Source of the DNA: Thozetella sp. PMI_491
Lineage: Eukaryota; Ascomycota; Sordariomycetes; Chaetosphaeriales; Chaetosphaeriaceae
Length of the DNA: 64,000 bases
Direction: 5' to 3'
NCBI GenBank assembly: GCA_021432635.1
Contig: MU270085.1
Coordinates: 124,001-188,000, forward strand
Both the position numbers and the translations under genes were made by a program. A model generated the notes under the pieces. It was given only the letters and a program-made list of their open reading frames with translations, made no database searches and was not told the origin of the DNA. Positions 13,824 to 35,911 of the stretch are shown here, one piece after another (within the stretch, counting starts at the first letter, position 1; the number at the start of each line of letters is the position of its first letter).

Positions 13824-14786
13824 AGAACCTAATATATTTAGATTTAGTGTGGTTCCCTAGAGCGGCAACAGGGGGACTGCAGTTCGGCCACGAGCAGGCA
13901 GTAATTAGAAATATTGAGAGCTGGCACTTAGGTTGTAGCAAGATTGATCCTTGAGGAGTCATTAGTCTAGAGGTCCCCAAGGCTCTTATTTATACAAGGT
14001 AGTAGGAGGGGCACCCTAAATTTTGTACGTGGAAGGACCCAGGACCCAGGACCCAGGACCCAGGATTCATCACCTTGGTCAATATACATGTAAAAAGCCG
14101 CAGGTTGTTGCCGACATTATCCAACGACAGTCATTCACCTGGTTCCCTTTGGTCCCAGTCACTCTCTCCCCCGTTCTGGTAAACACGTTTTTCTTCTTCT
14201 TCTTCTTCCTTGCAGTAAAAGGCTAAATGGGTGTCACAAAAATTTTAGATCACTTTTTTAAGCAGCTGCTTCTGCCTGCTGGCATCCGACAAGGCAACCA
14301 CGACTCCGCCACACAAGATCCGGTGCCGCCACTCATCGCAGCCCAACTTGCCAGCGCAACCTGATACAACAAGAGTCTCGCCAACAACTCCAACCTAGGC
14401 CTTCTACACTGTACTGCGTCCACGAGAAGCATTTGCATGCCCGACGCTCTCTTTTCTCACACGAAACACCACGACACATCCTACGCCTTAGGAACAGCCC
14501 GAGGCCGTTCCAGCCACGTCGTCCGCAGGCGGGAGAATTCGCATGCCAATAATTCGTGACCCTTGCACTGGGTGCCGCGCTGAGGGCGGAACGATTGACC
14601 GAAGCCATGCCTGCAGACAATTTGCAGCAGAACCAGTCCAACCGGTGCGATGAGGAGTGGACGTCGGCTCCCCAGAAGACGCTAGCATTCGATTATGCTT
14701 TCCTGAGGACGGCCGACCCGCCCCGGCCGAATGCAATCAGGTCGAGTGGGGTCCGCGAGCGCAAGCGTGCGTCTTCTGCGCCACCG
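13824..14786. other. Intergenic with a short 7-nt tandem repeat
   Basis: No gene recognised. At about 14034-14066 the heptamer GGACCCA is repeated four times. A (ttc)n tract lies near 14195. The frame upstream of 14787 is open and includes other Met codons, but homology to HET proteins begins only after 14787. Confidence 0.35.
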
Positions 14787-17511
14787 ATGCCCTTCGCTCT
14801 GTCTGCATATTGTTATTCTCCTTTACCAGATGGCTTTATCCGCTTGCTTCGAGTGATGCCGCATCGAGACGAACATGCCCCGATACAATGCCAGCTCTTC
14901 GAATACCCTTTCCTCGACTCGGGGGAAGGACCTGATCTTTACGACGCTTTATCTTATGTATGGGGCTCTCGTGAAAACCCTCAGCATGTGTTCACAGATG
15001 AGGGTTACCTGCGCGTCACGAACAGTCTTTACGCGGCACTATTACATCTTCGAGATCGCTCTCTTGGACGAATCATATGGATCGATGCTATTTGTATAAA
15101 TCAAGAGAATAAGGGAGAAAAAGGGGAGCAGATTCTGCGCATGGCTGAGATCTATAGTAGAGCAAGTCGTGTAATTGTTTGGCTGGGCGAGGCGAAAAAT
15201 AATAGCGATCAGGCGCTTGAAGATATACGCCTTGCTGCAGACGCCGATTTCCCGGTCAACACACTGAACAAGCAAGCAATCCTCACACTACTCCAGCGGC
15301 CATGGTTTGAACGCATATGGGTACGGGAGTAAACACTTGAACAGTATTGATACATATTACTAATAAGATTGATCCAGGTTTTGCAGGAAGTTGCCGCCGC
15401 TCGAAGTATCCTAATCAAGTGTGGATTAACGGAGATTGATGGATACGCCTTCTGCAAGGGTCTAAACTCGGGTTCGCTTGACCTGCTTGGCAAAGCTACC
15501 CCGGATTTGCGAAATCTGATCCACACGATAACCTACCTCATTGAAAGAGCGACATTCCGGCGTAAGAAAATATCAAGGTCATCAACTACATTCTCGCTAC
15601 ATATACGACCTTTAGGCGAGCTGATCGACATGTACCATACGCGCGAGGCAACCGAGCGCCACGACAAAGTATTTGCCTTGCTTAGCATGTCCTCGGACGA
15701 TCCGACTTCAGCTGGCATAAGACCTGAATACGATCTCAAATGGGGAAAGCTTATGAAGAGGCTTGTCAGCTTCATTCTCAGTGGTCACATTTCTGTTGAT
15801 ACCTGGAACGAAGGAAGGTCCCCCAGTGATCGTGTCTCTATTGATACCTGGGACGAGAGGGCGACAGCAGTTATTAAGAGCAAGGGTTGCGTGCTTGGCA
15901 GAGTAGAGGTAAAAGATGTCAACAATGAGTCTGGTGGCGGACAAAACATACAAGCCACCATCAGAACATCACCTGGAGGTAGACTAAGTGGGAGCACTCC
16001 ATGGCGTCTGCATATCTCGGCCAAATCCGTCCAAGACGGTGACTTGATTTGTCTCTTGCAAGGAGCCTTGAAGCCCATGATCATTCGATTACAGGAGGAT
16101 CACTTTACAATTGTCCTGATCACAGCCGAACCTCCGAAGAGTGTGCACATCGGGAATGGGGACGTCGAGTGGACAAAATTTGCACAATCAGCATCTTTCA
16201 TTCGAGATTTTATGCTTGTTTGGGACTGGAAAACATTCGTTAAGAATGGACACAATCCTGATCAACACGATGCGTGGTTGTCGCAACTTGCAAAGACGAA
16301 ATTGGAAAATGATATGGAAACCTCTGTCCGAACATGGAATACTGCGCAGATATTGGAAGATGCAGCAGCACACAGTGAAGCAGGAGAGAGGAGACAGAAG
16401 GCAGCAGAGTCTTTTCAGGTAGTGGTTAAAAAAAAGCACACGCATTCTCTAGAATGCCAATGCAGCCAAGTCCCGCTATTGTGGGCAGCAGAGAATGGAG
16501 ATGATGCGGTAATAGACATGCTGCTCGCTACAGGCAAGGCTGATATCGACGCGATCGATGGACACGTCCGGACGCCGCTGTCATGGGCCGCCGAGGGAGG
16601 GCACAAGGCCGTTGTCAAGCTGCTACTCACTACAGGCAAGGCCGATATCGACGCAAGAGATAGAAGTGACCGGACGCCGCTGTCATGGGCCGCCGGGGGA
16701 GGGCACGAGGCCGTTGTCAAGCTACTGCTCGCTACAGGCAAGGCCGATATTGACGCGATAGATGNNNNNNNNNNNNNNNNNNNNNNNNNNNNNNNNNNNN
16801 NNNNNNNNNNNNNNNNNNNNNNNNNNNNNNNNNNNNNNNNNNNNNNNNNNNNNNNNNNNNNNNNNNNNNNNNNNNNNNNNNNNNNNNNNNNNNNNNNNNN
16901 NNNNNNNNNNNNNNNNNNNNNNNNNNNNNNNNNNNNNNNNNNNNNNNNNNNNNNNNNNNNNNNNNNNNNNNNNNNNNNNNNNNNNNNNNNNNNNNNNNNN
17001 NNNNNNNNNNNNNNNNNNNNNNNNNNNNNNNNNNNNNNNNNNNNNNNNNNNNNNNNNNNNNNNNNNNNNNNNNNNNNNNNNNNNNNNNNNNNNNNNNNNN
17101 NNNNNNNNNNNNNNNNNNNNNNNNNNNNNNNNNNNNNNNNNNNNNNNNNNNNNNNNNNNNNNNNNNNNNNNNNNCCGGACGCCGCTGTCGTGGGCCGCCG
17201 GGGGAGGGCATGAGGCCGTCGTCAAGCTGCTGCTTGCTACAGGCAAAGCCGATATCGACGCAAGAGATAGATATGGCCGGACGCCGCTGTCGCGGGCCGC
17301 CAAGGGAGGGCATGAGGCCGTTGTCAAGCTACTGCTCGCTACAGGCAAGGCCGATATTAATGCGATAGATGTATATGGCCGGAGGCCGCTGTCGCGGGCC
17401 GCCGAGGGAGGGCACGAAGCCGTCGTCAAGCTACTGGAATCACACAGGCCTCAATTTTCGTCAACTATATATATAGCCTCAACCAACACCCCACCAACCA
17501 CCCGCTCTTAG
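14787..17511 (+). CDS. HET-domain protein with C-terminal ankyrin repeats (interrupted by assembly gap)
   Basis: Exon 1 is 14787..15320 and exon 2 is 15378..17511, containing the gap at 16765-17174. The intron (57 nt) has the branch site TACTAAT and joins RIW to VLQEV in frame. The HET domain fills about residues 35-220: YDALSYVWGS, IIWIDAICINQ, RMAEIYSRASRVIVWLG, PWFERIWVLQE. After a middle region (DKVFALLSMSSDDP) the C-terminus carries 34-residue ankyrin units (RTPLSWAAEGGHKAVVKLLL). HET proteins trigger vegetative incompatibility and cell death in moulds, and the repeats are the usual recognition part. The frames on the two sides of the gap differ as assembled. A whole number of 102-nt units plus 7 nt would reconcile them. 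Upstream Met codons are possible; 14787 was chosen because it directly precedes the conserved part. Confidence 0.85.
16467..17481 (+). repeat. Near-identical 102-nt ankyrin repeat array
   Basis: Units beginning with the codon CGG before ACG/AGG CCG start at 16569 and 16671, and after the gap at 17176, 17278 and 17380, each exactly 102 nt apart. A more diverged unit lies at about 16467. The units differ mainly at the last five residues (DGHV, DRSD, DRYG, DVYG) and at one W/R position. The DNA is otherwise almost identical, pointing to recent amplification or gene conversion. Confidence 0.85.
16765..17174. other. Assembly gap (410 N)
   Basis: Run of N inside the ankyrin array. The bases just before and after fit a missing 7 nt plus a multiple of 102 nt. 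Four units would be 415 nt, close to the estimated gap. Confidence 0.95.
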
Positions 17512-18888: not shown

Positions 18889-20575
18889 CGCAATGGCAAA
18901 TCTCAAGAAGTATGGATCCGTACAATGTCACATGGCTAATATATCACGTGCATATGTCCCATACGTTTTGGCTTTTTCGCCTGAAAACGTGGTTGCGGGT
19001 AGAAACGCTTGGACCCTTTTCTTCTACCCTCACTGACCTGTTACCTTGATCTTAAGAAGCCCTTGGTCGAGGGACCTGGGACTCCAGAAAACGATATGCG
19101 GAGATCCAGCACTGTTCAACAAGATTGCCGATCGGATCAGGGTTGACCTCCAAGACGACTCAACTATCCACATGACTTTTTCCCTAGAAGCCAGGACTTC
19201 GAGGCTGAAGGACAACATGAATCCCGGGAGGAGATGGTTTTGCATTGGGTGGAGCCTTTTGACGAGGAGATACCGCAAAAGCATAAAGCCAGCATTCCGA
19301 CGCTGATGTTCCGCGCGGTATGGCACCGCGGGCCTCGTCGGATGACTTCAGCAAAACGAAAGGTGTCTCTCAATCTAGTTCAACCATGGTATACCCCGAG
19401 GCCTTTGAAGGTAGAAAATTCCAACGTTGGCGATATGTCCCCTACTTTGAAGGCCAAGAAGAAGAGATAAAGCGAGACCACAGTACTTTCGGGACGCGAA
19501 AGCCAAGGTAGACCAGGACAACATCACCATCAAAGCGCCACGAATTGGCCCAATCGACGCCGTCGAACTTCTTAGACGCACTGCCTAATGTCAAGAAGCA
19601 TGATAGCAGACGCTACCCCGAGGCAGGGCAGATGGAAGGAAGCCTTGCTCGAACGTTACAAAGTTATATTCGTTCGGAACTCTGGCACGTCCTTTTCAAA
19701 GACGATATTACACGGGACGAGTAAGTTCTTCGGCGTCTAAATATAGTGTCAAGTGTTTGAGTATGCTAAAATAAAGATGATTTAGCTTGATCACGATAGG
19801 TGCCGATGAGACTTGCCACCAACCCGTGTTTATTTCCACATTCTCTGGCACCCTGGCATGGTAGAGAATGAGCTTTACGGCTACTGCTGCCAGGCTGAGG
19901 ATTCGCACGAAAGGGTCGAGATGCAACAAAACAGCCCCATATACCGTCTTACACACCCTTCTCTTCATCATTATGTATGGGATTCACGTCCCGATATACG
20001 GTCGGCCTCGATCGTGTTGGCATGCGCCCAAGGTGTTATGTCGATAATACACAACCTGCTGGAGTTCTGGGGATGTATAATTTTCCAGAGCTTCCCGGCT
20101 TCTGAGCGGGCCAAATATCTCCCTACTCATGGAATTCTCCCGCATCTGTCGTGGACTCAATCTTGCGAATCCCTTGTGGCAAGGCTTTGCCCCAGACCCA
20201 CAGCCCGCCTTTCAGGACAAGAAGCAGCAGTTTACTCTCTTGATCAGAAATGCGAGATGCCCAGAGGAGAAGGACTACTATATGTCATTGTCTCGCGAGT
20301 TCACAAACCTCAAGGCCTCTAGTGACGAGAAACTTCGCTCGTTCTACCTCAAAGTAAATTTGCAAAGCCGAATCTCCGCCGCGGATACGAAATCACAGAG
20401 AACCTTGACGAGCTCCATAAACGGATGTATGAAGTATGCGAATAAAGGCAGCTCTGGGGCAATTTACGTCACATTTGGGTCTCTGTTATTAGTTATACGA
20501 ATCAACAAGGAATACCTAAGCTTGCAAGAGGGGAAGGATGATACTTGCAGGGTCGCCTTGCATTGTACCGTGTGA
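18889..20575 (+). pseudogene. Possible remnant of an unrecognised gene
   Basis: Protein-like segments appear in shifting frames: DPALFNKIADRIRVDLQDD, MVLHWVEPFDEEIPQKHKAS, GRKFQRWRYVPYFEGQEEE, KKHDSRRYPEAGQMEGSLA, and at 20129-20575 a 148-codon frame with RNARCPEEKDYYMSLSREF. Intron-like signals are present but I could not join the pieces into one continuous protein. It may be a degraded gene or a multi-exon gene I cannot resolve. No family recognised. Confidence 0.25.
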
Positions 20576-20966
20576 CGTGACCCGTCACCATGCCCCACTT
20601 ATCTGCATCTTCGGAAGGGTCGGCTAATCATTCACTGATTGGTCGTTTTCGTCCTCCTCAACTCCCGTGTCCCTCGCCCGCTTCATTCGGGCCATCATTT
20701 GCCCCTCGTTTCCCCACACATCCGTGCAAACCAAAGCTGTAGCGTCGGGGCGTTTCCATCTCACCCCACACGAAGACTCTCCGTGGCCAAATTCCGCCGT
20801 AGGGGTCGGGTCGGTTTCGCTCGATCTTCGCCTCCCATCTCAGCTGCCACGCCCGCCCAAGACGGCCCACGTCCATGTAAAATACTCCAGTGGAGCATCT
20901 CGTGAAAGTTCAACCGCTGCGTCTGCCCGTTCTGGAGCCCAGAGCAGACAGGAAGGGCGGGTCAGA

Positions 20967-23509
20967 ATGGCAGACGAATCCGCCCGGGAGCTGGCAAGCC
21001 TGGCCTGCTACCCCTGTAAGAGGTATGCGAACCTACCCTATCGTACGAGATGTCGCCCCGAGACTTCCTGATTCGTCTGCTAATCGCGGCATCATTGCTA
21101 TCGATAGGCGCAAGGTCAAATGGTACGTGGAACCTATCCAAGCCGTTCCGTGTTCCCGCTAGACGGGCAGGTAGCTATGTCCGTTGCCATGTCGTCCTTA
21201 TTTAACCGACTTCGCTCGCCAGCAACCGCCTCTTTCCTGTGTGCTCCCTCTGCATCAAACTTGGGGCCGCTTGCTCGTACCCAACCCACAGCGAGAAGCC
21301 GGGGCCAAAGCTCGGTTAGTCTTTCCACCGGACCTAGAAAAGTACAGGCTCACTAATAGAGTGTCACTGTCTGTAGGCAGCACACATAAGCGCAGAAGGC
21401 TTCAGGGCTCCGATACGGCAACAGTCGGAACGTCCCGTGGAGGTGAGCTATCGCCAGACACAAGCCATAATGCTTTTTCAACAACAGGCACACCCGGAAC
21501 ATCTGCGATTACCCCCAATTCGGGCCGGCTAGTTGCTGGCTACCAATCCGAAGACGCAAGTTTGCTCTCTGGAGATCTCGTTGCTCTCAGTCCACCGCCA
21601 ACGCGGCATGAAATAGGTGGTGAGGTCAGCCCGAAGTCTCCCAATGCACCCACCTTCTCTCAGATCATGTACCCCTCTCACGAAGCCCAAACCCGGGGGC
21701 CATCGCCGTCTCCTCGCGAACGAACCCCCGAGCGCAGAGCAGCCGCCGCCGCGGTGACGACGGAGACCATATGCAACGGGCTCAAAATCTCGCAAGAGTT
21801 ATATAATTACCTGTGTGTTCTTCGCTGCGAGCAAAGCCGCTTCGTGAATTGTGTGCTAACCTTCCCCCAGGATGGAATCATACTTCACCAACATGACGTC
21901 GTTTACCATATTTAAGCCTCGTTCTATCGAACATAAACTTCGTTCCTTGAGAAGCCCTGCCGAGGGCGAGGCTCTGGTGGCAGCGATATTTTCCTTCTCA
22001 GCAAGGTTCCACAGCTGTTTCCACGCGCCCGGTCGCCCGGATGTATGTCCAGCGCCGGAACATTTCGCAACCATAGCTACGACACAATTAGAAAAAGCGC
22101 TGGATCGCTATGCGGACTCGATACCGCCTTTTTGGCTGCTCCAGACCTACGTTCTCGTTGCCTTCTACGAGCTGACGCGCAGTGTGCGGTCCAAATCCTG
22201 GAGGGTCCTAGGAAACTGCATCCGGCTGGCTTACGAGATGAACCTGCACATGATCGATGTGGAACGCCAGCCCGGGTCGGAGGCCGACGGCCATCACGCC
22301 GATGCGGATCGCTGGTCCGCTATGGAAGAGCGCCGGCGCGCCTGGTGGGCGATCTGGGAGATGGACGTCTTTGCCAGCACGATTCGCCGCCTGCCGTTGG
22401 CCATAGACTGGAGCCAGAATTTCACCCTCCTGCCCGTCTCAGACGACAGCTGGTTCAACAATATCCCACAGCCGAGCTGCTACCTCGCTCTGGACCCCAC
22501 GCTACGCTGGAAGCACCTGTCCAGCTCGGGCAACAACAGTGCACGCGCGTGGTTCATCATAATCAACTCCCTAATGTGCAATGCTCAACTTATCGCCTAT
22601 CCCATGGGCTCCACGATTGACTGGAGCGGCGAATCGAATGATGACGACCTGCACATTATTGAGAACTCGTTGTTCTGTGCGAGCAACTCCCTGCCTCCAG
22701 ATCTCGCGTACCATGGTGAGACACTCGACTTCCGAACCAAGGCGTCTTCTGCAGATATCAGTTATCGGCAATACCACAGCGATATATACGCCATACATCT
22801 CATGACCCAGCTGGTGCGCTTCATGTCCCACCACCACAAGGTCTGCGCGCAAGCTCCTGCACCCGGCACCGAGCCCAGTGCCCCGGCCGCGGCGCTGAGC
22901 TCGGCGGACGCATCGTCGTGGTCGCACTATATGAATGCCGCGCAGGAGATCGTCACCATCGCGCGCAACAGCGCACCAGATCACTGCAAGTATGTGAATC
23001 CATTCTTAACCAATACGGTCTGGTTCGCGGCCGCGGCCCAGGTCGCCTGCAGGGTGTTTGGTCCTACCTCTCGTAACAAGCAGTTGGTCGAATCCAACTA
23101 TGAGCTCCTGGCTCTCGTAATTGATCGATTCATCGCGTTCTGGGATATCATGGGCATGCTCAAGCGCCGGCTGTCCAGGGTAGAGGCCGGCTTGAAAGGC
23201 CTTACAGCAGGGCCTAACCGTGGGGTAGGCGGCCGTCGGGATGCAAATACCACCGCCGGGACGAGAGCCGGGGGCTCTAGCCTAGCAGGCCATTCCCCGC
23301 TCAGCCGTCCGGGAGCAATAGATGCCACCCAGTCCCTGCCGGCCGATGGCTCGGTCGTGGATCCAAATTCGCTGCAGTACATGCCGATGCTGTACGACAA
23401 CTTGGATGGACCGCCGCTGGTGGATCTCCCATTCTTCCCTGACCCCGGGCAGTTCTTCCCGTACGGGCTCGGCGACCTCTGGGTGTGGAATAAGGCAACG
23501 CCAAATTGA
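20967..23509 (+). CDS. Zn2Cys6 transcription factor, likely regulator of the aromatic cluster
   Basis: Model 20967..21022, 21108..21122, 21223..21314, 21377..21812, 21871..23509 gives 745 aa. Splicing assembles the zinc cluster from three exons: C14, C17 / C24 / C31, C34, C41 (CYPCKRRKVKC, then VCSLCIKLGAACSYP). The second exon is a 15-nt micro-exon coding the basic RKVK segment. The last large exon carries the fungal_trans domain: VAAIFSFSARFHSCF, FWLLQTYVLVAFYELTR, GNCIRLAYEMNLHMID and RRRAWWAIWEMDVFAST. An unstructured Gly/Pro-rich tail follows. The gene converges on the FAH-family gene 165 bp away and opens a cluster of three catabolic enzymes, so a pathway-specific regulatory role is likely. 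That part is inference from position. Confidence 0.88.
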
Positions 23510-23674
23510 CAGCTGGGAAAGGCTCTGCAATAGATTCTAGCTTAGGTATCTAATACTATCTGGGAACCCAGAGCTCGAGGCTCCATGACATTCCACTCGG
23601 TCGCGCCTGAGTGCCGGGTGATCTATGCCCAGTGGAACCTTTCTAAACCAGACGAGGCGGTTCTAATGTCTACT

Positions 23675-24730
23675 TTACTCGTAGTACACTTTGTTCACCA
23701 AGGTTCCGATCTGCTCAATCTCGATCCTCATGTCGTCGTCGTGATTCAACACGACCTTGGGGTTCCTCATGGCGCCAATTCCTGGGCCGGTTCCCGTCAT
23801 GATGATTGTGCCCTTCTCTAGGGTCGTTCCCTGGGAGAGGAATGCGATGGTCTTGGGGATGTCAAAAATCATCTCCCTGCCGAGCAATTGCTGGAGTCAG
23901 TTTTGGAGACGCAGGAGAAGGAGTAAGTAGGGTCTCTCACCGGGTGTTGGAATCTTGGACCACGGCGCCGTTGTGGATGGCCTTAATCTGGAGGACGTGG
24001 GGATCCGGGATGACGGACGGGGACACCAGGACGGGTCCAAGGGGGGCCGAGCCATCAAGGCCTGCACCATGCGTCAGTATTGGCCTTCATCGCCGTGAAA
24101 ATGTTTAGGGCAGGGACCCGACCCTTGGAGAAGCTCCATTGGCTGTTCTTGAACTGCTGAGTGCGCGCGCTGACGTCGTTGCTGCAGGTGTAACCCAAGA
24201 CGTAGTTCAGAGCCTCCGACTCGGGGATGTCCCGGCCGGTCTTGGAGAGGATGACGGAAAGCTCGGCTTCGTAGTCGCTGGAGCCATCCTGGGCGAGCTG
24301 GGGCACGTTGATCTTGGCCGGATAGGGCCCGTTCAGCGCGGTGCGAGGCTTGATGAAGAGCACCGGGGTGTCGGGGATGGGCATGTTGGCCTCGCGCGCG
24401 TGGTCGCGGTAGTTGAGGCCCATGCACCGGATGATGGGCACGTCCTCCATCCCAATTGGCGAGAGAAGCTGCGATGGGGGGGTCAAAGGGCGGTTCGCGA
24501 CTAAAGAGGGACGAGGGAGCTCGGGGAATTCACACCTGCGCTACGTGCAGCTTCTTGGAGGTGACGACGCCGTCAAAGATTGACCCCTGGATCAGGCTTG
24601 CCGTGACCTTCTCCCCGTTCAAGGTGGCGAGGCCGACATCCGGGAACTCCTTCTCATCCACATCGCCCAGATGCACCTGCCCGTCCTCCTCCGCGATGAA
24701 GCGGATTAGTCGTCTCCAGTTCGGGCTCAT
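23675..24730 (-). CDS. Fumarylacetoacetate hydrolase (FAH) family enzyme
   Basis: Spliced on minus: 24730..24536, 24468..24123, 24061..23941, 23876..23675; 287 aa, all introns 61-67 nt with canonical ends. Start chosen at MSPNWRRLIRFIAEEDG. The FAH core is clear: RCMGLNYRDHAREANMPIP, LFIKPRTALNGP, the metal ligands in SDYEAELSVIL (ExE) and the Asp in CSNDVSARTQQ, then TIIMTGTGPGIGAM near the end. The family contains hydrolases, hydratases and decarboxylases acting on 2-oxo-dioic compounds, such as 2-hydroxyhepta-2,4-dienedioate isomerase and 2-oxopent-4-enoate hydratase. Next to an extradiol dioxygenase it probably handles a ring-cleavage product. The exact reaction cannot be read from the sequence. 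Confidence 0.9.
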
Positions 24731-25479
24731 GGTGGCGGGGAAGCTATCTGGCTGCTGTCTGGCTGGTGAGAAGATGCGGCGTAGGTTGGACGGCGTGGTA
24801 GAAAGTCGAGTCTCGGGTGCGGGTGATCGGGGCAAGAGGACCTTTATTTTTTATTTTTTTGGCAAGAAACTAGGCTTTCGGCAGTTCAAGTGATGCCGTG
24901 ACGCTTCGCGCATGATCCATATATAGTAGCCACCCGGAAACTACAAGCTACAAGCTCCGTTTTCGCTGAGGAGCTCCTCCGTGGTGGGGGAGCGGGGTCG
25001 GTCCAATTTCGGGCGGTTTACTGCTGTGCGGCGGGTTTCACACGCCAGCGGCCGCAATGCCCCACGGCACTAAGCATCGGGTCAGAAGCAGACCTCTTGC
25101 CGAGTAAATCCTCGGTATATGACGGCTTAGTTCGCGGGTCCAGGGGAGACATGATAGAGCACGGATGACACGGCAAAGTTTGGGCGGCAAAACGTGATGG
25201 TTCTGATGTCTCGGGCACTTGATCTAAGAGCTTCGAATGCGAAGAATTTACGACCTGAAGAAAGCGCCCGTCTACGGAAGCACTTTGGCCATGTGTCTAT
25301 GCATGTTCCTTCTAGCGAGTGGGAGGCTTTCAATACTACTACAGAGGCATATCGGCCCAGTACCTAAGCACACGCTTCTCGACATAGCAATCTGGTAGTG
25401 CACCAATTTTACCCATAAAAAAATCCGTCCCTACACGCTAAACGCGATACAAAGAGAGGCGGTGGTCCAGACATTAAGA
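24731..25479. other. Intergenic between FAH-family gene and dioxygenase
   Basis: Non-coding as far as I can see. It serves as promoter for the FAH-family gene; a TATA-like tatatata motif is at about 24918 (atatatagtag). Confidence 0.35.
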
Positions 25480-26622
25480 TCACATCAAAAATGTCGGAGG
25501 CAGAGGCGGTCCCCATACGTGGAGATTGTCTGGGCCCGCTTCTTCACGGCCCGTTGGGGTGGTCTCGTCGACCAGGTCTCCATCGACTGCGAAGACGGGT
25601 TAACCAAGGTGCCAGGAGAAGGGAGATTACCTCTCGACTTACCATAGTGTTCCAGGATGAACTTGGATGGATCCCACCTAGATTTCCGTTGTCAGCGAAA
25701 CGAAAACAATAACGGTAGCAAGGGGCTTCCTACCAGTAGTCGAAGATCTGCGAACCTAGGACGTGCCTACCAACGCCCCAGACTAGATCGTACTTCTTCT
25801 CCCGCAGCCACTGGTGTCCCAGGGACTGGATGTCGAAGTCGTGCACCTCGAAGCTCGAATGGTGCACATGGTACTTGGGTCCTAACCAACCAATTAGTAC
25901 GAAAACTCTCCCAGCAGCCAAAAAAAAAATTGGACATCTCTCGCCAGGGACGCACCCTTGAAGAAGAAGAAAGTGTGGTGATCGACCTGCTCCATTCCGC
26001 GATCCAAATGGAGGAAGGTGGTGATGTCCTTGCCCGTGTTGTCGTGGATGATGTCGCTGGGCTTCAGATTGAAGTTGGTCGTGTAGAACTCGAACGCCTT
26101 GGCGAAGTCGGTGACGCAACAGCCAAAGTGGCCAAGCTTGTGCACCGGCGCCGGCCCTTGCTTGAAGCGCTGCGTCTTGTTGACGGCGCGGTGCTTGGAC
26201 TGCGGGAAGTTGTACTCCAGCTCCGGGAGGTGCGCTGACACCGCCACGGGCGTCTGGCCGTGGATTAGATGGAAGGGGAAGCCGTCGACGGGGTCGTAAA
26301 AGGTCACGCGCTTGCCTCCGCCCGGCCCGTCGATGTCGTGGATCTCGGTCGCCTTGGGAAGCGTCTTGGATGCGCGCTCTAGATCTTCCACTGACTCGAC
26401 TACGAATGCTGCTCCACCGAAGGCGTTCTCAGCGCCCTTGGTGGCGCAGTACACAAACGGCTCGGTCCCGTAGCCCTTGTAGAAGACAGTGTCGCCCCGG
26501 TCCTCAGTGATGGTGAAGCCGAAGTCCAGCAGAAACTTGCGGGCCGTCTCCAGATCCGCATGTGTGTAGTACACATGGGCGATCCGCACGAGCTTGATCT
26601 TAGTATCTGCGTGAGGGGACAT
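25480..26622 (-). CDS. Extradiol ring-cleavage dioxygenase (catechol 2,3-dioxygenase-like, VOC fold)
   Basis: Spliced on minus: 26622..25956, 25881..25734, 25677..25643, 25586..25480; 318 aa. Exon 3 is only 35 nt. Two glyoxalase/VOC modules are visible: residues 10-122 (RIAHVYYTHADLETARKFLL ... FHLIHG) and 158-285. The Fe(II) ligands of type I extradiol enzymes can be placed: His165 in KLGHFGCCV, His229/230 in YHVHHSSFEVHD and Glu281 in KFILEHYVDGD. They are formed only after splicing the last introns, which supports the model. Expected reaction: O2-dependent meta cleavage of a catecholic ring. It lies between a phenol-hydroxylase-like FAD monooxygenase (divergent) and an FAH-family enzyme (downstream, same strand), consistent with one pathway. 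Catechol itself versus a substituted catechol cannot be told. Confidence 0.88.
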
Positions 26623-27864
26623 GACGACAGAAGTACACGATTGTGTGTATGTCGTAGGTGTATGGTGCGGCAGGTCTCGTCAGAGGTGGTTTGTGGGGTG
26701 TCGTTGGCGAAGAAGCCGCTACTATTCTTGTGCTTAAGTACCCTAGGGGTGCTTGCCAAGGGACTGCTTTACCGAAAAGAGTTTCCCCAGACAATGCTGA
26801 CGGTGATTTTGCGTTCCATGACCATTCATATCGAAGGTAGACAGGCGTGTATAGGGTTGTCGGCTGAATTATGGCTGCTCGGTCGATCTATCGGTCGAAA
26901 TGCGAACCTGCAAGGTGAGCAGCCAACTGATGCGGAGAAATTCACTAGACTACACCTTACCCCGCCTCCCCCCCCGATCCCTGGCCCTCCCGATCCCCGC
27001 CCCCGTCGGCATACGGGGTGGGCTCTGCAAGATCTCAACTCGATGATAGTCCCGCGCAAAAAAAGGGTGAACCGGGGCTCGGTAACTCAAACCTGCCAGC
27101 CTTGTGTTATCTGAAACAAGCGCAGTGGCGCCTATTACATCCTATAGCACGCAGCAGGGCGGCTTCAAGCCCCTTGGGTACCTACATACCCCCCCACTCG
27201 TACACACGTAACCTCGCGGAGCTGGCTGCTAGGCTAGGCTGACTCGCTAGGCCAAAGCGTCGGCCGCTGGGCGCTGGTCATGGCCATCATGGCGGCGAGC
27301 TGGGATATTTAGCATTGCTATGACTATTGTCCGCTGGCACCGCTACGGAGCCTGGAACAGCCCGCTTGGCGCTCATTCTTCTCGTCTCGGCGGTGGAGCG
27401 TGGCCGCTTCGACTTGATGGCGGCGAGAAAGGTCTAAATTTGCCCTGTACGAACCGGCAGCCTATAGGCCAAGCGACGTTGTCATCCTTGGAAGCTTCAA
27501 TGTTACCTTGCGAACCTGGTTGTGTGCTAGCTGCTGAGCTAACTCTAGATGAGCAGGGGTTCCCAGCCTATGAAGGCCCACTACCTAAGGAGTCTTCTCC
27601 GTAATGCTTACCGCACTGGCTCGTAAGCAGAAACTTGAAACCCTAATGGGCCACATGAACCAGACCGCCCTGTGCGCTTGTTGCGTCTTTATAGCTGGCT
27701 TGCCTGTTGTAGTCATCTTGCCTTACCTGAACTTGACCTCTTGTTCAAGTCTGCTCGCGACACCTGATTGGGTGGAGGGATTGCCCAACACCGACCTTGG
27801 ACACCTCGATAGTACGCTACTGCTTTACAGACCGCTCCCGCGTTCGTCGCTACCGCCTTTCAGA
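26623..27864. promoter_or_regulatory. Divergent promoter between dioxygenase and FAD monooxygenase
   Basis: 1.24 kb between the two start codons, without a convincing gene. At 26880-26898 the heptamer CGGTCGA occurs twice in direct orientation, giving two CGG triplets 12 nt apart. This is a plausible half-site arrangement for a Zn2Cys6 protein but short enough to be chance. Long C-runs lie near 26965. Confidence 0.4.
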
Positions 27865-29925
27865 ATGGCGGAAGGCATCGTAAAGACCGACCTGTTAATT
27901 GTGGGGGCAGGGCCTGCCGGCGCCTCGCTCGCCTGCTTCCTGGGAGCCCATGGTATGTGTCACAAGACACGGCTGGCTGTGCCCGCAAGTAGTACCGAAT
28001 CGACCGACTAATACCCGGCCTCCGGTGTAGGGCGGACCGGCATAATTATAGCGGCCGCCTCGGGGACCGCCGAGACGCCCCGGGCGCACATCACGAACAT
28101 GGCCGCGCTGGGTATGGCTCACCACTTGCCACTCTGTCCCACCGCTGAACGAATGCTGACGATCGGGTCCCACAGAATGTCTGAGGGACATTGGGCTGGA
28201 AGGTGAATGCATCGCTGCAGCCTCCCAAGGCGAAAACATGATCCACACCCGCTGGTGCCAGAGCATGACCGGCGAGGAATACGCGCGTATACACTCGTGG
28301 GGGTGGGGCCCGAATCGGCTGGTACGGCTGCCTCCGCTGCTGCCTGTGGACGTCACAGAAGGGCGACCGGTCCTCAGTATCTTCGGCTGACTTAGGATCT
28401 CAGGGCGACTACGACGCGGCTAGTCCCTGCAACCACGTGGACCTGCCGCAGACCCTACTAGAACCCATCCTAACTCGAAGGGCCGTCCACTCCGGTTGGT
28501 CTCTGCGGTTTAACACGTCGTTCGTGCGCCTCACACGGCCCTCGCCCGATGTGGTCGTGAGCGAGGTGCGAGACGATCTCACAGGTATCACGTACAAAAT
28601 CCAGTCGCGGTACCTCTTCGGCTGCGATGGAGCCCGGAGCCAGGTGATCCGGGAGCTCCAGATCCCGCTGATCAAGAAACCGAACCAAGGTCTGGCGCTG
28701 AACATCCTCGCCAGGGTCGACATGTCGAACCACGTCGAAAGCCGCAGGGGAAACCTGCATTGGGTATTCCGGCCCGAGCGGGAATCTCCTCCCTGGGGCT
28801 GGGCGACCATTCTACGCATGGTGAAGCCATGGACAGAGTGGATGTTCATAATCCTCCCAGCCCCGTGGGCGGATGTTACTGCCGACGACATGAACGCCTC
28901 CCAGGAAGAGTACATGGCACTGGTCAAAGACGTGATCGGCGATGATTCAATCGAACCTGAAATCCTGGACGTCAGCAAATGGTGGATAAACGAGACCGTT
29001 GCCGAACACTACTCGGACGGGAACGTGTAAGTCTAGCCTGCCCTATCTTGGCCGAGTGGCCTACTAACGATAGGACTTCAGCTTCTGTCTTGGGGATGCT
29101 GTGCACCGTCACCCGCCCTTCAACGGCCTCGGGTCCAATACGTGCATCCAAGATGCATTCAACCTGGCATGGAAAATCTCGTACGTCATGTCGGGCCAGG
29201 CAAGCCCCAAGATCCTCGACACCTTCAGCGTTGAGCGCCAGCCGGTCGGCGTCGACGTCATTACACGCGCCAACCAGGGCTTGCGTGACCACTCGGGCTG
29301 GATGGCCGCAATCGGCATGCTGGAGCCGGACATCGAGAAGCGACGAGCTATCTTTGCCGAATTTGACGAAGAAAGCGAGCGCGGCCGGCAGCGGCGGCAG
29401 GAATTCCAGAAGGGCATCGAGCAGACAGCCACTGAATTCCACGGACTGGGCGTCGAGATGAACCAACGATACTTCTCCAACGCCGTCTACCAGGCCGACG
29501 AGACCGAGCCTGCTCCAGTGCCGGAGGACCCTATCAGCGTGCACCAGATCACCACTTATCCGGGGCGGCGCGTGCCGCACGCCTGGCTGAACACCCGAGC
29601 GCCCGGAACTCAGTTCTCTACGATCGATCTGGCGGGACACCGCCGTTTCTGTCTCCTCACCGGACCTGGCGGCCAGGCGTGGAAGGATGCAGCGGCAAAG
29701 GTCTCCCAAGCCGTCGGGGTCGAGATCAAGAGCTACTCGATCGGGTGGAAGCAAGACTACGAGGATGTATATTTTGACTGGGCGCGGCGGAGACAGGTGG
29801 AGGAGGATGGCTGCGTGCTCGTGCGTCCGGATCGGTTTGTGGCCTGGAGATCGAAGTCCATGATTGCTGATTGCGACGCGAAGTTGGAGACGGTCATGAG
29901 GAGCATCTTGTCATTGACCACCTAA
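27865..29925 (+). CDS. FAD-dependent aromatic monooxygenase (phenol 2-monooxygenase/MhpA-like)
   Basis: Model 27865..27952, 28031..28111, 28176..28321, 28404..29026, 29082..29925 gives 593 aa. Class A flavoprotein hydroxylase motifs are in order: GxGxxG in LIVGAGPAGASLACFLGAHG (residues 11-30), GRTG directly after it, the DG motif in YLFGCDGARSQV, and the GD motif in CLGDAVHRHPPFNGLGSNT, followed by IQDAFNLAWKI. The C-terminal part has the thioredoxin-like fold of phenol hydroxylases (PGRRVPHAWLN, FCLLTGPGG, GCVLVRPDRFVAWR). Expected role: NAD(P)H- and O2-dependent ortho-hydroxylation of a phenolic substrate, yielding a catechol for the neighbouring dioxygenase. The protein carries no signal peptide, so it should be cytosolic. 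The substrate is not identifiable from sequence. Confidence 0.9.
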
Positions 29926-30734
29926 CTAGACCTCGGGAAGACCCTAGATAGCATCTGCGCTTCGTGTTGAGCGGCCGGGCTTATGACGTTATGGCGAAAG
30001 GTAGAATCGGGAATCGCAATCTGCAACATATTAAAGCAGTCAGAGTTCGGGTCAGAGGTCAGTGTGGCAAGATACTGTTCTTGGGGCAGCGAATGTGCCA
30101 ACAGACACCCACGAATGCCATTCGGTGTCGGGAGGTGTACGGTCAATTCTGCAGGACAGTAAACATGTTCGGACTCCAGCAAGACATATCTACTTGCGTC
30201 AAGCTAACATGATCAACTATATTTAGCACAGATTTTACCTACCAGCATTGTTGCAATACCGATTTCAGACAAGGACCTCAAAAATTAGAGCTAGGAGACG
30301 ACATGAAATCTCACAAATTGCAACAGCATGCCGTAGATGACGACGGGCATGGCACATTGTTTAATGAAATGATGAAAAGGGTAGCTGCCTGCCAACAACA
30401 CATGCGTGGAATAATTTCACTTTGTTTTACGAATTTAGCCTCTATGCTTGTTGGGCACGTTGGTTCACAAGTGCAGTGAGCAGTACATGCGACCTATAGG
30501 GTCAGTCCGGATCACGTTATGCCTCAATATGGTTCTGAGGACGGCTCGACGCCAAGATGCAGCAGCCAGAACCAGAACCAACGCCTCAAATCCCTACCAA
30601 CGGTTATATGCCGCTTTCGAAGGCTAGAGACAACGAAAGGAAGGCCATTCCCTCCTATATGTATTTATGTCGCCTTCTAGACACCAGACGACGCCAGGCC
30701 GGAGTCTATGTGGTAGCATTGGGACTAGGACACT
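29926..30734. other. Intergenic
   Basis: Nothing recognisable. The short frames here are not protein-like. The last 150 bp are promoter sequence for the protease gene. Confidence 0.35.
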
Positions 30735-32024
30735 ATGACACGAGGCGCGGCTTATTGGATAGCAACCCTGTCGCTTACGACAGCATTCGTCCACGCCGCA
30801 TCAAGCAACACTCCGGATAAACCGAAGCTTCTGGGTAACCTAGAGAGTGGGAGAATGTCTATCCCAGCCGTCAAGATTCCTAGCGCAAACTTGACTGTTC
30901 GTCCCCGAGGAGACAGGAGTTCTATCGATGTCGGCAGCGAGTAAGCCACTGTTCTCTCGATTCTCAGACGCCTCCTCTAACCGACACCTTAGCTGGTACA
31001 TCCCGGCCTGGATTGGAAAGCCTCCGAAACTGTTCTATCTTCTGGCTGACAGCGCCGCTAACAATTTGGAGATCGAATCCACCCTAGCGCCGGTAGATCA
31101 CCAGGGCACTGTTCCCAAATATGATCCTACAAAATCAACCACTGCGGCGCGGATGGGGGGATACACATGGGGGGAGTGTTTTTGGAGTGGTTACTGCGCC
31201 AATGGGGTCGTCTATACGGATACCTTCACTGCCGGTCAGATATCCATTGTCAATATGAGGCTTTTGGTGCAGACCAACAACACCTCGCCAAATAATGGAA
31301 GCATGTCCGGAAATCTTGGTCTCAATTTCGACAAGAACGGGATGTCTACAAGTCCCACGCGAATCAACTCCTATTTCCAAGAGATTATGCCTCATCTTGA
31401 ATGTAAGCACCCCCGGCGGACAAGGTCGGAAAACTTGGGACTCCGCGAGTGAGACACCGGCTGTTTCTTACCTTGGGCACAGCTCCTCTCTGGACCGTGG
31501 ACTACCACAGATCGACTAGCGAGGGGCAGTTCCAGTTTGGGTACATCGACCCCGAGGCATACATAGGAAGCATTTCGTATGGGCCAGTAACGACCACGGG
31601 CGGGGAGTGGACAGTTGAAGTGCAAGGCGTTGGGGCGGGCTATGCCGACTCTGAGTTCGGCAAGCACAAATTCACAGTGCTAGTCGATACCGGCTCGGGT
31701 GGTGGCTCCATTTCGCGTGAGGCAGCTGATCTCTATTGGCGTCATGTACCTAGTTCGGTCTGGCATGAGGGATGGTACAACTACCTATTTCAGTGCAACC
31801 ACACGTTGCCGGACTTCGTCGTCCAGCTCGCTAATGGTGTCAGGGTCGGCATCCCAGACGATGGATTACGATGGAAGAGTGTAGGCAACGGTCAGTGCAT
31901 AACGATACTGGGTGTTGGGAAGACAGACGATGTGGTATGGGGCTCCACCTTCATCGAGGCCTTTTTCGTCATTTTCGACTGGGGAAAAGGGAGGGTTGGA
32001 CTAGCGACCAAAAGTGCCCGGTAA
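30735..32024 (+). CDS. Secreted aspartic protease-like protein (A1 family) with atypical first active site
   Basis: Model 30735..30940, 30993..31402, 31483..32024 gives 385 aa. The N-terminus MTRGAAYWIATLSLTTAFVHA is a signal peptide. The A1 layout is recognisable: an N-lobe strand WYIPAWIGKPPKLFYLLADSA, then GNLGLNFDKNG, a second lobe with GQFQFGYIDPEAY, the second catalytic motif KFTVLVDTGSGGGSI, and the late VVWGSTFIEAFFVIFDWGKGRVGLA. The second Asp sits in a normal DTGS. At the first site, however, the sequence is ADSAANN instead of DTGSS, so the Asp is kept but the following Gly is replaced by Ala. Activity is therefore uncertain. It could be a degenerate or specialised member. A fragment of exon 2 is duplicated in inverted orientation 2 kb downstream. 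Confidence 0.8.
30996..31111 (+). repeat. Source copy of a 116-nt inverted duplication (protease exon 2)
   Basis: This stretch of exon 2 recurs on the opposite strand at 33045-33160 with a single mismatch (accaggg versus accaagg). The flanks on both sides are unrelated. Confidence 0.9.
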
Positions 32025-33905: not shown

Positions 33906-35015
33906 TTAGTTTGGTAGGCCCTGGAGGGCCTCAAATTCCTTGCTATAGGGTTGGTCGACGTATCCAACCGCGGCCTTGGGGACATAGAATCCGGATCGAT
34001 TCCACGGGTTTAAAGGGATGCCTTCTCGCAGCCGAAAAGGAAGATCAGGGTTTGCAATGAATGACCTGCCAAAGACGATAACGACGTCTTTGTTCGGCCA
34101 CAACTCGTCGATGTAGTGGCCCACGTTCTCCGGCGTGAAGCCGCCGGCCGCAAAGTAAGTCCCGCTCCAGAGCTTGTGGATAAAGTCGTTCGACCCAGTG
34201 ACCCCGCCCACGGCATCCTCGTTCGCATTCACGCGCGGCTCGGTGACATGGAGGTACGCCAAGTTAGTAGGAAGCTTCTGGATGAGATCGGTGAATTGCG
34301 GGATTGGGTCTGAAGTCCGCATGTCCTGAAATCTGCTCCATGGGCTAAGTCGGATGGCAGTCCTCTCAGCCCCGATTGCGTTGATGACGGACTCCACGAC
34401 CTCGATGGCAAATCGCGATCGGTTCTCGATGCTACCGCCATACTCATCTGTCCGCTGGTTGGCTGAGCTCTGTACAAACTGGTCGATCAAGCGTCCATGG
34501 GCGCCGTGAAGTTCCACTGCATCAAACCCGGCGCGAATCGCATTCCGCGCCGCATCTGCGAAGTCTTGGATGGTGGATTTGACCTCCTCAGTAGTCATTG
34601 CGCGCGGAACGGCACCGCCAGAAAATGGTATTGTGCTTGAGGACTTGATGCTAAAGCCCTCACGGGCCGCGACCTCTTCTGTCGCCGCGCGACCGTGCCC
34701 ATTCAGTTGCGCCACGATGAAGCTATGTTTTGCGTGCACGACCTCGGTGATCTTCTTCCAAGCTTCGACTTGGGCTTCGTTGTATATTCCGGGGGTATTG
34801 TTTGACCCTCCTTGCTTGACAGAAATGTCAATAGCCTCGCTGATCAGGAGGGTTCCTGGGACAACCGCTCGCTGAGAATATTGTTCGACCATCAGGTCGT
34901 TTGGCACATGATCATCCGTCGCTCGGTATCGGGTAAGCGGAGCCATAGCTACACGATGTTTGAGCTCCATATCACCGACCTTCAAAGGCTGGAAGAGGCG
35001 CGATTTGGTGGCCAT
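33906..35015 (-). CDS. Old yellow enzyme family flavin oxidoreductase
   Basis: A single uninterrupted exon of 369 aa. OYE landmarks in order: LFQPLKVGDMELKHRVAMAP, PLTRYRA, PGTLLISEA, the substrate-binding pair in ELHGAHGRLIDQF, then NQRTDEYGGSIENRSRFAIE, the FMN-phosphate region YFAAGGFTPENVG, and IVFGRSFIANPDLPFRLREG. The family reduces activated alkenes with NADPH using FMN. Two details are unusual. The catalytic pair is His-His (HGAH) as in YqjM-type enzymes, rather than the His-Asn (HGAN) of yeast OYE. The loop usually reading LWHLGRA is LNGHGRA here. Length is normal. The cytosol is the expected location; substrate unknown. Confidence 0.92.
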   Translation of the reverse strand: MATKSRLFQPLKVGDMELKHRVAMAPLTRYRATDDHVPNDLMVEQYSQRAVVPGTLLISEAIDISVKQGGSNNTPGIYNEAQVEAWKKITEVVHAKHSFIVAQLNGHGRAATEEVAAREGFSIKSSSTIPFSGGAVPRAMTTEEVKSTIQDFADAARNAIRAGFDAVELHGAHGRLIDQFVQSSANQRTDEYGGSIENRSRFAIEVVESVINAIGAERTAIRLSPWSRFQDMRTSDPIPQFTDLIQKLPTNLAYLHVTEPRVNANEDAVGGVTGSNDFIHKLWSGTYFAAGGFTPENVGHYIDELWPNKDVVIVFGRSFIANPDLPFRLREGIPLNPWNRSGFYVPKAAVGYVDQPYSKEFEALQGLPN

Positions 35016-35911
35016 TGTGATTGCGTATGTGGTCTGGTTAGCGAGTCAGGTTGTCGATGATGCGAATGGAGAGATAAATGTGTTCTATGAAGCCCCTTCA
35101 CTATACAAGAGTTGCAGGTGCTTGCGAAGCTTTCTAGGTCTTGTTATTCGCGCTTTGCACTTGTTGACTGTTCGCATTGACATCCCTTTTATACCTACAT
35201 GGTCCCGCCCACAATACCACGGAGTTTACGCCCTCTGCAGGTTTTAGGATTATCTATTAAACATTCCCATGATGCCAATCCATAGATCCATCTTTTCCCT
35301 CATGAGAAGGTTCCTCCATGGTGGACATTGTGTGATTTTGAAGTGGCATGGATACTAGCGTTAGATGCATACACGCCAAGCCTTCTAAGTCTGTTAGCCT
35401 GGTACGAGGCGGAGACCAGCTATGTTTGGGGGTTCGAAGCCAGTAAAGGGCATTTCGGCACGCTGTGAGCCCTGCAAGCTCTCTTTATCTCTCCTTCTGG
35501 TCTATAATAGTGGATACAAGACGGCGGCCTTTGAATTCCCTCGCTAACAAACAAACAGGGGTGGTATTGTACAACCTAATTTGTCAGCTGATACCAAATT
35601 TGTCATCTCAAGACTTGGCCGGCCGGAAGCAAAAACCGGCAACAAACGCCGGTGGAGGACAAAGGCCGAGGAGTAGCAGATCCCGTTAAAAAGGAAGGGA
35701 TATTGTAGAATTCTTTCGTTATCGCTATGGGGATTCTAGCAGAGGATGGAGTCCCTCTACGAGTTGCGCCAGACTCCTGAAGGCGTCGCCAACGGGAAGC
35801 CCATCTACACTCTTTGGCTCAGGGATGACAGCAAGTTGCCGATATTCTAATATTTTGGAAGATACGGGTATGGCGCATCTTCGTCTATCTAGGCGACTTT
35901 TCCTTTCCCGT
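35016..35911. other. Intergenic
   Basis: The first 200 bp are promoter of the old yellow enzyme gene. A short frame at about 35745-35850 (YELRQTPEGVANGKPIYTLW) looks protein-like but is isolated, perhaps a gene fragment. Nothing else recognised. Confidence 0.3.

Follow-up and report, generated by a model that had tools for sequence, protein, structure and literature searches.

The 64,000-nucleotide stretch of the Thozetella sp. PMI_491 genome analyzed here (contig MU270085.1, positions 124,001 to 188,000; referred to as the window) harbors four adjacent genes at 20967-29925, encoding a Zn2Cys6 regulator, an FAH-family hydrolase, a type I (VOC) extradiol ring-cleavage dioxygenase, and a class A flavin adenine dinucleotide (FAD) aromatic hydroxylase. 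It is likely that these genes constitute a fungal catabolic set for a substituted phenol that operates by meta (extradiol) cleavage, with both activity and induction predicted from sequence. The genes are intact, their products belong to the expected families and carry the catalytic residues, and their close association recurs within the genome and in bacteria. In the proposed pathway, the FAD enzyme would hydroxylate its substrate ortho to an existing hydroxyl group to yield a catechol, or a 1,2,4-trihydroxybenzene if the substrate is a diphenol. The Fe(II)-dependent type I dioxygenase would then open the ring beside the diol, and the FAH-family enzyme would hydrolyze the ring-opened dioxo-acid at a C-C bond to give pyruvate or an acylpyruvate and a short acid. 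The Zn2Cys6 protein would turn the genes on when the substrate is present.

Gene models and predicted proteins

The four genes reported in a preliminary description of this DNA are all present. Each can be spliced to a single open frame with GT-AG introns, the splice sites having been read by eye and the gene models being predictions, and Pfam bears out the family of each product. The dioxygenase gene (26622-25480, minus strand; exons 26622-25956, 25881-25734, 25677-25643, and 25586-25480) encodes 318 amino acids. The protein matches PF00903 (Glyoxalase/dioxygenase, 4e-12) over two stretches, corresponding to two modules, and TIGR02295 over residues 11-291. Its best solved relatives are 3b59 and BphC, with homoprotocatechuate 2,3-dioxygenase ranking lower. 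The active-site set is complete: H165, H230, and E281 lie within the stretch aligned to BphC at the metal-ligand positions of the C-terminal module (2-His-1-carboxylate), where we take the BphC metal ligands to be their equivalents. H215, H262, and Y271 match the second-sphere His/His/Tyr positions, presumably H195, H241, and Y250 of BphC. All six residues are identical in the six copies found in the genome and in all 80 bacterial and fungal relatives fetched, a count that for H165 and Y271 is partly the product of selection, since both sit inside the two patterns used to search for relatives. His165 and Glu281 had been named beforehand, together with an ambiguous His229/230. The latter can be settled as H230, which is invariant across the paralogue alignment, whereas H229 is replaced by Gln in the copy on contig C16. 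The protein is, by these sequence features, a member of the type I extradiol family, with extradiol activity predicted.

The FAD hydroxylase gene (27865-29925, plus strand; exons 27865-27952, 28031-28111, 28176-28321, 28404-29026, and 29082-29925) encodes 593 amino acids with FAD_binding_3 (2.5e-77) and Rng_hyd_C (8.8e-21) domains. The motifs GAGPAG, DG, and GD occur at residues 14, 180, and 317. Among PDB entries the protein matches TfdB (6u0p, 397 bits, 40% identity) and HbpA (4cy6, 396 bits) over nearly its full length. The neighborhoods of five of 30 listed plasmid-borne relatives were examined: two belong to clusters that include FAH and VOC genes, two are close to a catechol 1,2-dioxygenase gene, and one is near neither.

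The FAH-family gene (24730-23675, minus strand; exons 24730-24536, 24468-24123, 24061-23941, and 23876-23675) encodes 287 amino acids matching FAA_hydrolase (PF01557, 4.5e-62). Among proteins of solved structure, the best match is to a 2,4-diketo-3-deoxyrhamnonate hydrolase (8gsr), followed by HpcE (1gtt), with FAHD1 (6sbi and 6fog) further down. The protein contains H88 and E91 in an HxxE arrangement, which we take to be the lid pair, and E132, E134, and D163, which we take to be the metal triad. The regulator gene (20967-23509, plus strand; exons 20967-21022, 21108-21122, 21223-21314, 21377-21812, and 21871-23509) encodes 745 amino acids with Zn_clus (3e-10) and Fungal_trans (1.3e-15) domains.

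The gene pairs are arranged as one convergent, one tandem, and one divergent, separated by 0.17, 0.75, and 1.24 kb. A 1.24 kb upstream region (26623-27864) is common to the dioxygenase and FAD hydroxylase genes, which diverge from it. The right-hand neighbor is an aspartic protease gene (frame 31407-32021), so the cluster consists of four genes as far as is visible.

Related loci in the same genome

The genome searched comprises 72.3 Mb in 157 contigs, in which the window is C71:124001-188000, and the locus counts are lower bounds. At least six dioxygenase loci of this kind are present (C71, C16, C3, C40, C19, and C95), along with at least 17 FAH loci after 36 match rows were merged. The distance from dioxygenase to nearest FAH gene is 0.75 kb in the window, 0.83 kb on C16, 1.07 kb on C19, and 3.5 kb on C3. 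Thus, an FAH gene lies within 5 kb of the dioxygenase gene at four of six loci, for which P is ~5e-10 (~3e-7 for three of six), a rough figure that assumes uniform placement and ignores shared descent. The grouping is therefore more than chance. In the window and on C16, C3, and C40, the dioxygenase neighborhood additionally contains genes for a class A hydroxylase and a regulator.

The loci differ in composition. C16 carries genes for a sugar-type transporter, FAD hydroxylase, Fungal_trans regulator, lipocalin, FAH protein, dioxygenase, and pirin. C3 carries the dioxygenase, FAD hydroxylase, FAH, Fungal_trans regulator, and sugar-type transporter genes. C40 carries genes for an S15/PepX_C hydrolase, TRI12 transporter, dioxygenase, aldehyde dehydrogenase, Zn_clus regulator, second S15/PepX_C hydrolase, and cupin, with an FAD hydroxylase gene 12 kb from the dioxygenase gene. 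Partial or reordered gene sets are thus found on C16, C3, C40, and C19; the exact four-gene set in the order of the window was not seen elsewhere in this genome or on a fungal contig described below (L069).

The regulator appears to accompany genes of this type. Outside the window, its top paralogue (26 to 46% identity, depending on the segment) is found on C1, where a DUF3433 gene separates it from an FAD hydroxylase paralogue 7 kb away (53 to 60%, likewise by segment; C1:923900-934800, L154). The search for this dioxygenase clade gave no match on C1. The second-best paralogue is the regulator located in the C16 extradiol cluster (30%). The location of both near cluster-type genes supports the regulator traveling with these genes. 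The C40 regulator resembles that of the window in the zinc cluster only.

The association of FAH and dioxygenase genes does not derive wholly from the copying of a single cluster. In a tree of 11 of the 12 spliced FAH paralogues, with 200 bootstrap trees, the window protein groups with those of C19 and C52 (98/99), and those of C16 and C3 group with that of C47 (92/93). The four dioxygenase-linked FAH genes formed one clade in none of the 200 bootstrap trees, and neither C52 nor C47 has its FAH gene close to a dioxygenase gene of this clade. The linked FAH genes come from two parts of the tree, and the pairing is therefore not all one copied cluster. The chances seem evenly balanced that filamentous fungi possess an unmapped central route of aromatic catabolism, in which one type I extradiol clade, expanded to six members in one genome, would have been combined repeatedly with different flavin hydroxylases, with FAH genes of both tree groups, and with its own regulators, such that one fungus could meta-cleave several phenolics.

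Bacterial relatives and origin

A scan of bacterial and archaeal genomes identified at least 573 relatives of the dioxygenase, of which the best 80 loci were fetched. Among the 79 bacterial loci in this set, some of which end at contig ends, an FAH homologue is present at 64 (57 with gene centers within 2 kb), an FAD hydroxylase homologue at 49, and both at 46. Ten of 40 listed plasmid neighborhoods of dioxygenase relatives were also examined, one record being unannotated. Eight of the nine annotated neighborhoods contain an FAH-family gene and four contain a class A-type hydroxylase gene, three of these annotated as 3-(3-hydroxyphenyl)propionate hydroxylase and one as FAD-dependent monooxygenase. 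The neighborhood on a Streptomyces plasmid contains neither an FAH nor a hydroxylase gene. A scan of viral contigs for relatives returned one partial match.

The remaining locus, L069 (NYXK01000232.1, 21019-34101), is labeled as part of a "Deltaproteobacteria" metagenome-assembled genome (MAG). It encodes an intron-bearing dioxygenase, a Zn2Cys6/Fungal_trans regulator, and two FAD monooxygenase frames. L069 is a fungal contig, and the MAG is contaminated with sequence from a mis-binned second fungus. L069 was accordingly dropped as a bacterial donor, as its dioxygenase gene splices like the C16 copy (the second exon is 176 bases in both) and it carries a Zn2Cys6 regulator gene.

In an unrooted tree of 86 rows with L069 unspliced, the six Thozetella copies and L069 form one group (Shimodaira-Hasegawa-like approximate likelihood-ratio test, SH-aLRT, 99). 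A second unrooted tree, of 47 rows and with the spliced form of L069, unites all seven fungal sequences in a single clade (100/98), adjacent to a Sphingomonas enzyme (98/94). A single transfer from bacteria to the fungal clade is possible, the trees being unrooted and without further eukaryotes. The direction of transfer is left unassigned because of the lack of a root and because the collection scanned is bacterial and archaeal. At the Sphingomonas locus (L077), FAH and FAD hydroxylase genes accompany the dioxygenase gene, together with an S15/PepX_C (CocE-like) hydrolase gene. Hydrolase genes of this kind are near the dioxygenase gene both there and on C40 (L053/L054). In addition, an aldehyde dehydrogenase gene, of the methylmalonate-semialdehyde kind by reading, lies ~5 kb from the FAH and dioxygenase genes in Halomonas (L067, 11573-12904) and in an Azoarcus MAG (L074, 11793-12905), which recalls the dinitrotoluene pathway.

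Alternative explanations

Several observations weigh against the proposed pathway. The dioxygenase falls below the NCBIfam equivalog cut-offs for HpaD (67 of 321 bits), catechol 2,3-dioxygenase (46 of 320), and BphC (47 of 366); the best E-value of any of the six genome copies against the equivalogs is 1.3e-18, and none is near a cut-off. Likewise, the best equivalog score of the FAH protein is 178 of 500 bits, and none of the six NCBIfam equivalogs listed reaches its cut-off. With both enzymes scoring so far below the cut-offs, no substrate can be named. In the two plasmid clusters that pair a relative of the FAD hydroxylase with FAH and VOC genes, one VOC gene has no match to the window dioxygenase at 1e-4 and the other is 26% identical; these VOC genes are therefore not close relatives of the window dioxygenase. 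The window cluster contains no transporter, CoA, or dehydrogenase genes. No promoter motif common to the three upstream regions stood clearly above chance, no shared k-mers exceeded those of shuffled sequences, and a scan for CGG palindromes found at least two sites at eight of 32 spacings, with a lowest p of 0.03 from a rough shuffle, uncorrected. The association is also incomplete across loci. No FAH matches were found on the contigs of C40 and C95, and the C40 cluster has an aldehyde dehydrogenase gene. Neither an FAH nor an FAD hydroxylase gene was recognized in 10 kb around the C95 dioxygenase gene, which has a glutathione S-transferase-like frame nearby, and in 16 kb on C19 only the FAH gene was recognized with the dioxygenase gene. 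L069 has no FAH gene in 13 kb, and the FAH matches of that MAG are on other contigs. A broad role is further challenged by Aspergillus niger, in which deletion of candidate ring-cleavage genes, including extradiol ones, caused no growth defect on gallic acid (PMC10512348, retold in PMC12388069).

The nature of the ring substrate bears on how the pathway would proceed. The preliminary description inferred a logical pathway and a complete extradiol set. The three enzyme families stand, but the set is not complete, as no hydratase, aldolase, semialdehyde dehydrogenase, or alpha/beta hydrolase was recognized among the frames of 20967-29925. By analogy, a ring of the 1,2,4-trihydroxybenzene type is tentatively favored, with a probability somewhat short of even, because FAH-type hydrolases take 2,4-dioxo-acids, which the extra hydroxyl group would yield, and because the cluster lacks the enzymes needed for plain 2-hydroxymuconic semialdehyde. 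A sub-case of meta cleavage, which appears rather unlikely, is a plain catechol pathway in which phenol would be converted to catechol and then 2-hydroxymuconic semialdehyde, with the FAH protein serving as an HpaG-like isomerase/decarboxylase and the later enzymes encoded elsewhere in the genome. In its favor, the FAD enzyme is nearest to ortho-hydroxylases of chlorophenol and hydroxybiphenyl, and two of its plasmid relatives lie near catechol 1,2-dioxygenase genes. HpaD also ranks first among the equivalog matches to the dioxygenase, the FAH protein has HpaG among its own matches, and C40 has an aldehyde dehydrogenase gene. However, the HpaD and HpaG scores are far under the cut-offs, the hydratase, aldolase, and dehydrogenase are unrecognized beside the window genes, and the top solved relative of the FAH protein is a hydrolase of a 2,4-diketo acid.

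Two further explanations would separate the genes from central metabolism or from each other. The enzymes could tailor or detoxify a secondary metabolite or plant phenolic, with the ring opened to inactivate or remodel the compound. Of two scenarios offered for a fungal extradiol enzyme belonging to a different class, one is ring cleavage solely for detoxification (PMC8896014), and the related C40 cluster includes a TRI12-type transporter and two S15/PepX_C hydrolase genes. This role is nevertheless improbable. No large synthase was recognized in the window frames listed (those of at least 200 amino acids outside 19000-32000), and an FAH-type hydrolase beside the dioxygenase suits breakdown. 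Moreover, some bacterial equivalents have acyl-CoA synthetase genes, and one has genes for a TRAP transporter and an aldehyde dehydrogenase nearby. It is far less probable still that the four genes are chance neighbors with separate roles, as the mixed strands, intergenic gaps, and lack of a common promoter motif might suggest, since their closeness recurs within the genome and in bacteria and paralogues of the regulator and FAD hydroxylase genes occur together again on C1. Catabolism of a phenolic by meta cleavage remains the preferred explanation.

Other features of the window

To the right of the cluster, a gene for an NADH:flavin oxidoreductase of the old yellow enzyme family (33909-35045) lies at a distance of ~4 kb and a tannase/feruloyl-esterase C-terminal exon (53328-54071) at ~23 kb. 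Both are possible suppliers of phenolics, and nothing ties them to the cluster. A HET-domain frame followed by ankyrin-like repeats containing a masked (N) stretch is found at ~14553-17511. Scans of the window and genome for tRNA genes were uninformative.

Significance and comparison with known systems

Descriptions of fungal aromatic catabolism rest on the intradiol, homogentisate, and gentisate routes and a few newer ones. The cluster was initially suggested as possibly representing a little-described pathway. A 2022 paper states that the fungal meta pathway is not characterized (PMC8896014). Extradiol enzymes are described as "less common in fungi" (PMC12388069), and homoprotocatechuate degradation as not characterized in fungi (PMC13094099); in the main text of that 2026 curated database paper, the terms "extradiol" and "meta-cleavage" are absent. 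Gentisate cleavage is counted as extradiol in fungi (PMC8283699), so that the gap is limited to this enzyme class and to rings of the catechol type and does not extend to extradiol chemistry as a whole. No characterized fungal type I extradiol cluster was found in the literature searched, which included few subscription journals, and one may be in print elsewhere. "Extradiol" genes of A. niger (PMC10512348) and of Penicillium, the latter highly expressed on paracetamol (PMC10146002), could not be assigned an enzyme type. With six candidate dioxygenases, four of which have an FAH gene close by, the question of a fungal meta pathway becomes directly testable, and these proteins would add enzymes for the conversion of lignin phenols.

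The systems closest to the window cluster differ from it in instructive ways. The meta operons of the mhp/dmp type, which the cluster was initially said to resemble, contain hydratase, aldolase, acylating dehydrogenase, and alpha/beta hydrolase genes with those for the ring enzymes, and MhpB is of the unrelated LigB type. Bacterial sets in which an FAD hydroxylase is joined by a type I extradiol enzyme and by a hydrolase of the FAA family (hcdABC; dntD/dntG) are a better match. DntG is a member of the FAH family. TfdB and HbpA, to which the window FAD hydroxylase is similar over nearly its full length, have different partners, namely an intradiol enzyme in the case of TfdB and, for HbpA, an extradiol enzyme together with an alpha/beta hydrolase. 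Gentisate dioxygenase has a cupin fold. The fungal gentisate cluster accordingly has a dioxygenase of another family, although it too brings together a monooxygenase, a dioxygenase, an FAH protein, and a Zn2Cys6 regulator (PMC8283699). CDO3 of the Ceratocystidaceae is a LigB-type, class III enzyme (PMC8896014). The Ceratocystidaceae and biruloquinone "extradiol" genes were considered as equivalents and rejected, being class III and Memo-like, respectively. One gene of the fungus Scedosporium has been labeled trihydroxytoluene oxygenase (PMC5716253).

Among the sets compared by sequence are the VOC-FAH-FAD genes on plasmids of Burkholderia multivorans, Microvirga, Sphingopyxis, and Rhodococcus. 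Their dioxygenases are 32-38% identical to the window enzyme over nearly the full length, with adjoining FAH and FAD genes; in contrast, their FAD enzymes are 25-26% identical to that of the window, and two of the four sets include an acyl-CoA synthetase gene. The remaining parallels are drawn by description rather than sequence. In Burkholderia degraders of 2,4-dinitrotoluene, dntB/dntD/dntG/dntE include a monooxygenase, a trihydroxytoluene oxygenase, and a bifunctional isomerase/hydrolase acting in sequence (PMC10602510), which parallels the window set, although the dnt pathway is xenobiotic. The hcdABC genes of Pseudomonas mandelii 7HK4, involved in 7-hydroxycoumarin degradation, place the same three kinds of enzyme side by side as in the window. 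HcdA (a class A-type flavin hydroxylase), HcdB (a type I extradiol enzyme), and HcdC (an FAA-family hydrolase) act in that order on 3-(2,4-dihydroxyphenyl)propionate (PMC6222606). HcdC left the ring-cleavage products of catechol, methylcatechols, and 3-(2,3-dihydroxyphenyl)propionate uncleared and is taken to cut the ring-cleavage product of the trihydroxy substrate, while still being termed "putative" (PMC6222606). The differences are that hcdABC is a bacterial operon without a fungal regulator and that HcdA is an ipso-hydroxylase, whereas the window enzyme is TfdB/HbpA-like. By analogy with these systems, the window set likely hydroxylates a phenolic, opens the ring at the resulting diol, and cleaves the product. 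As judged from its sequence, the cluster is a real and probably functional fungal version of a pathway known from bacteria, little described to date, in which ordinary enzyme families occur in an unusual setting.

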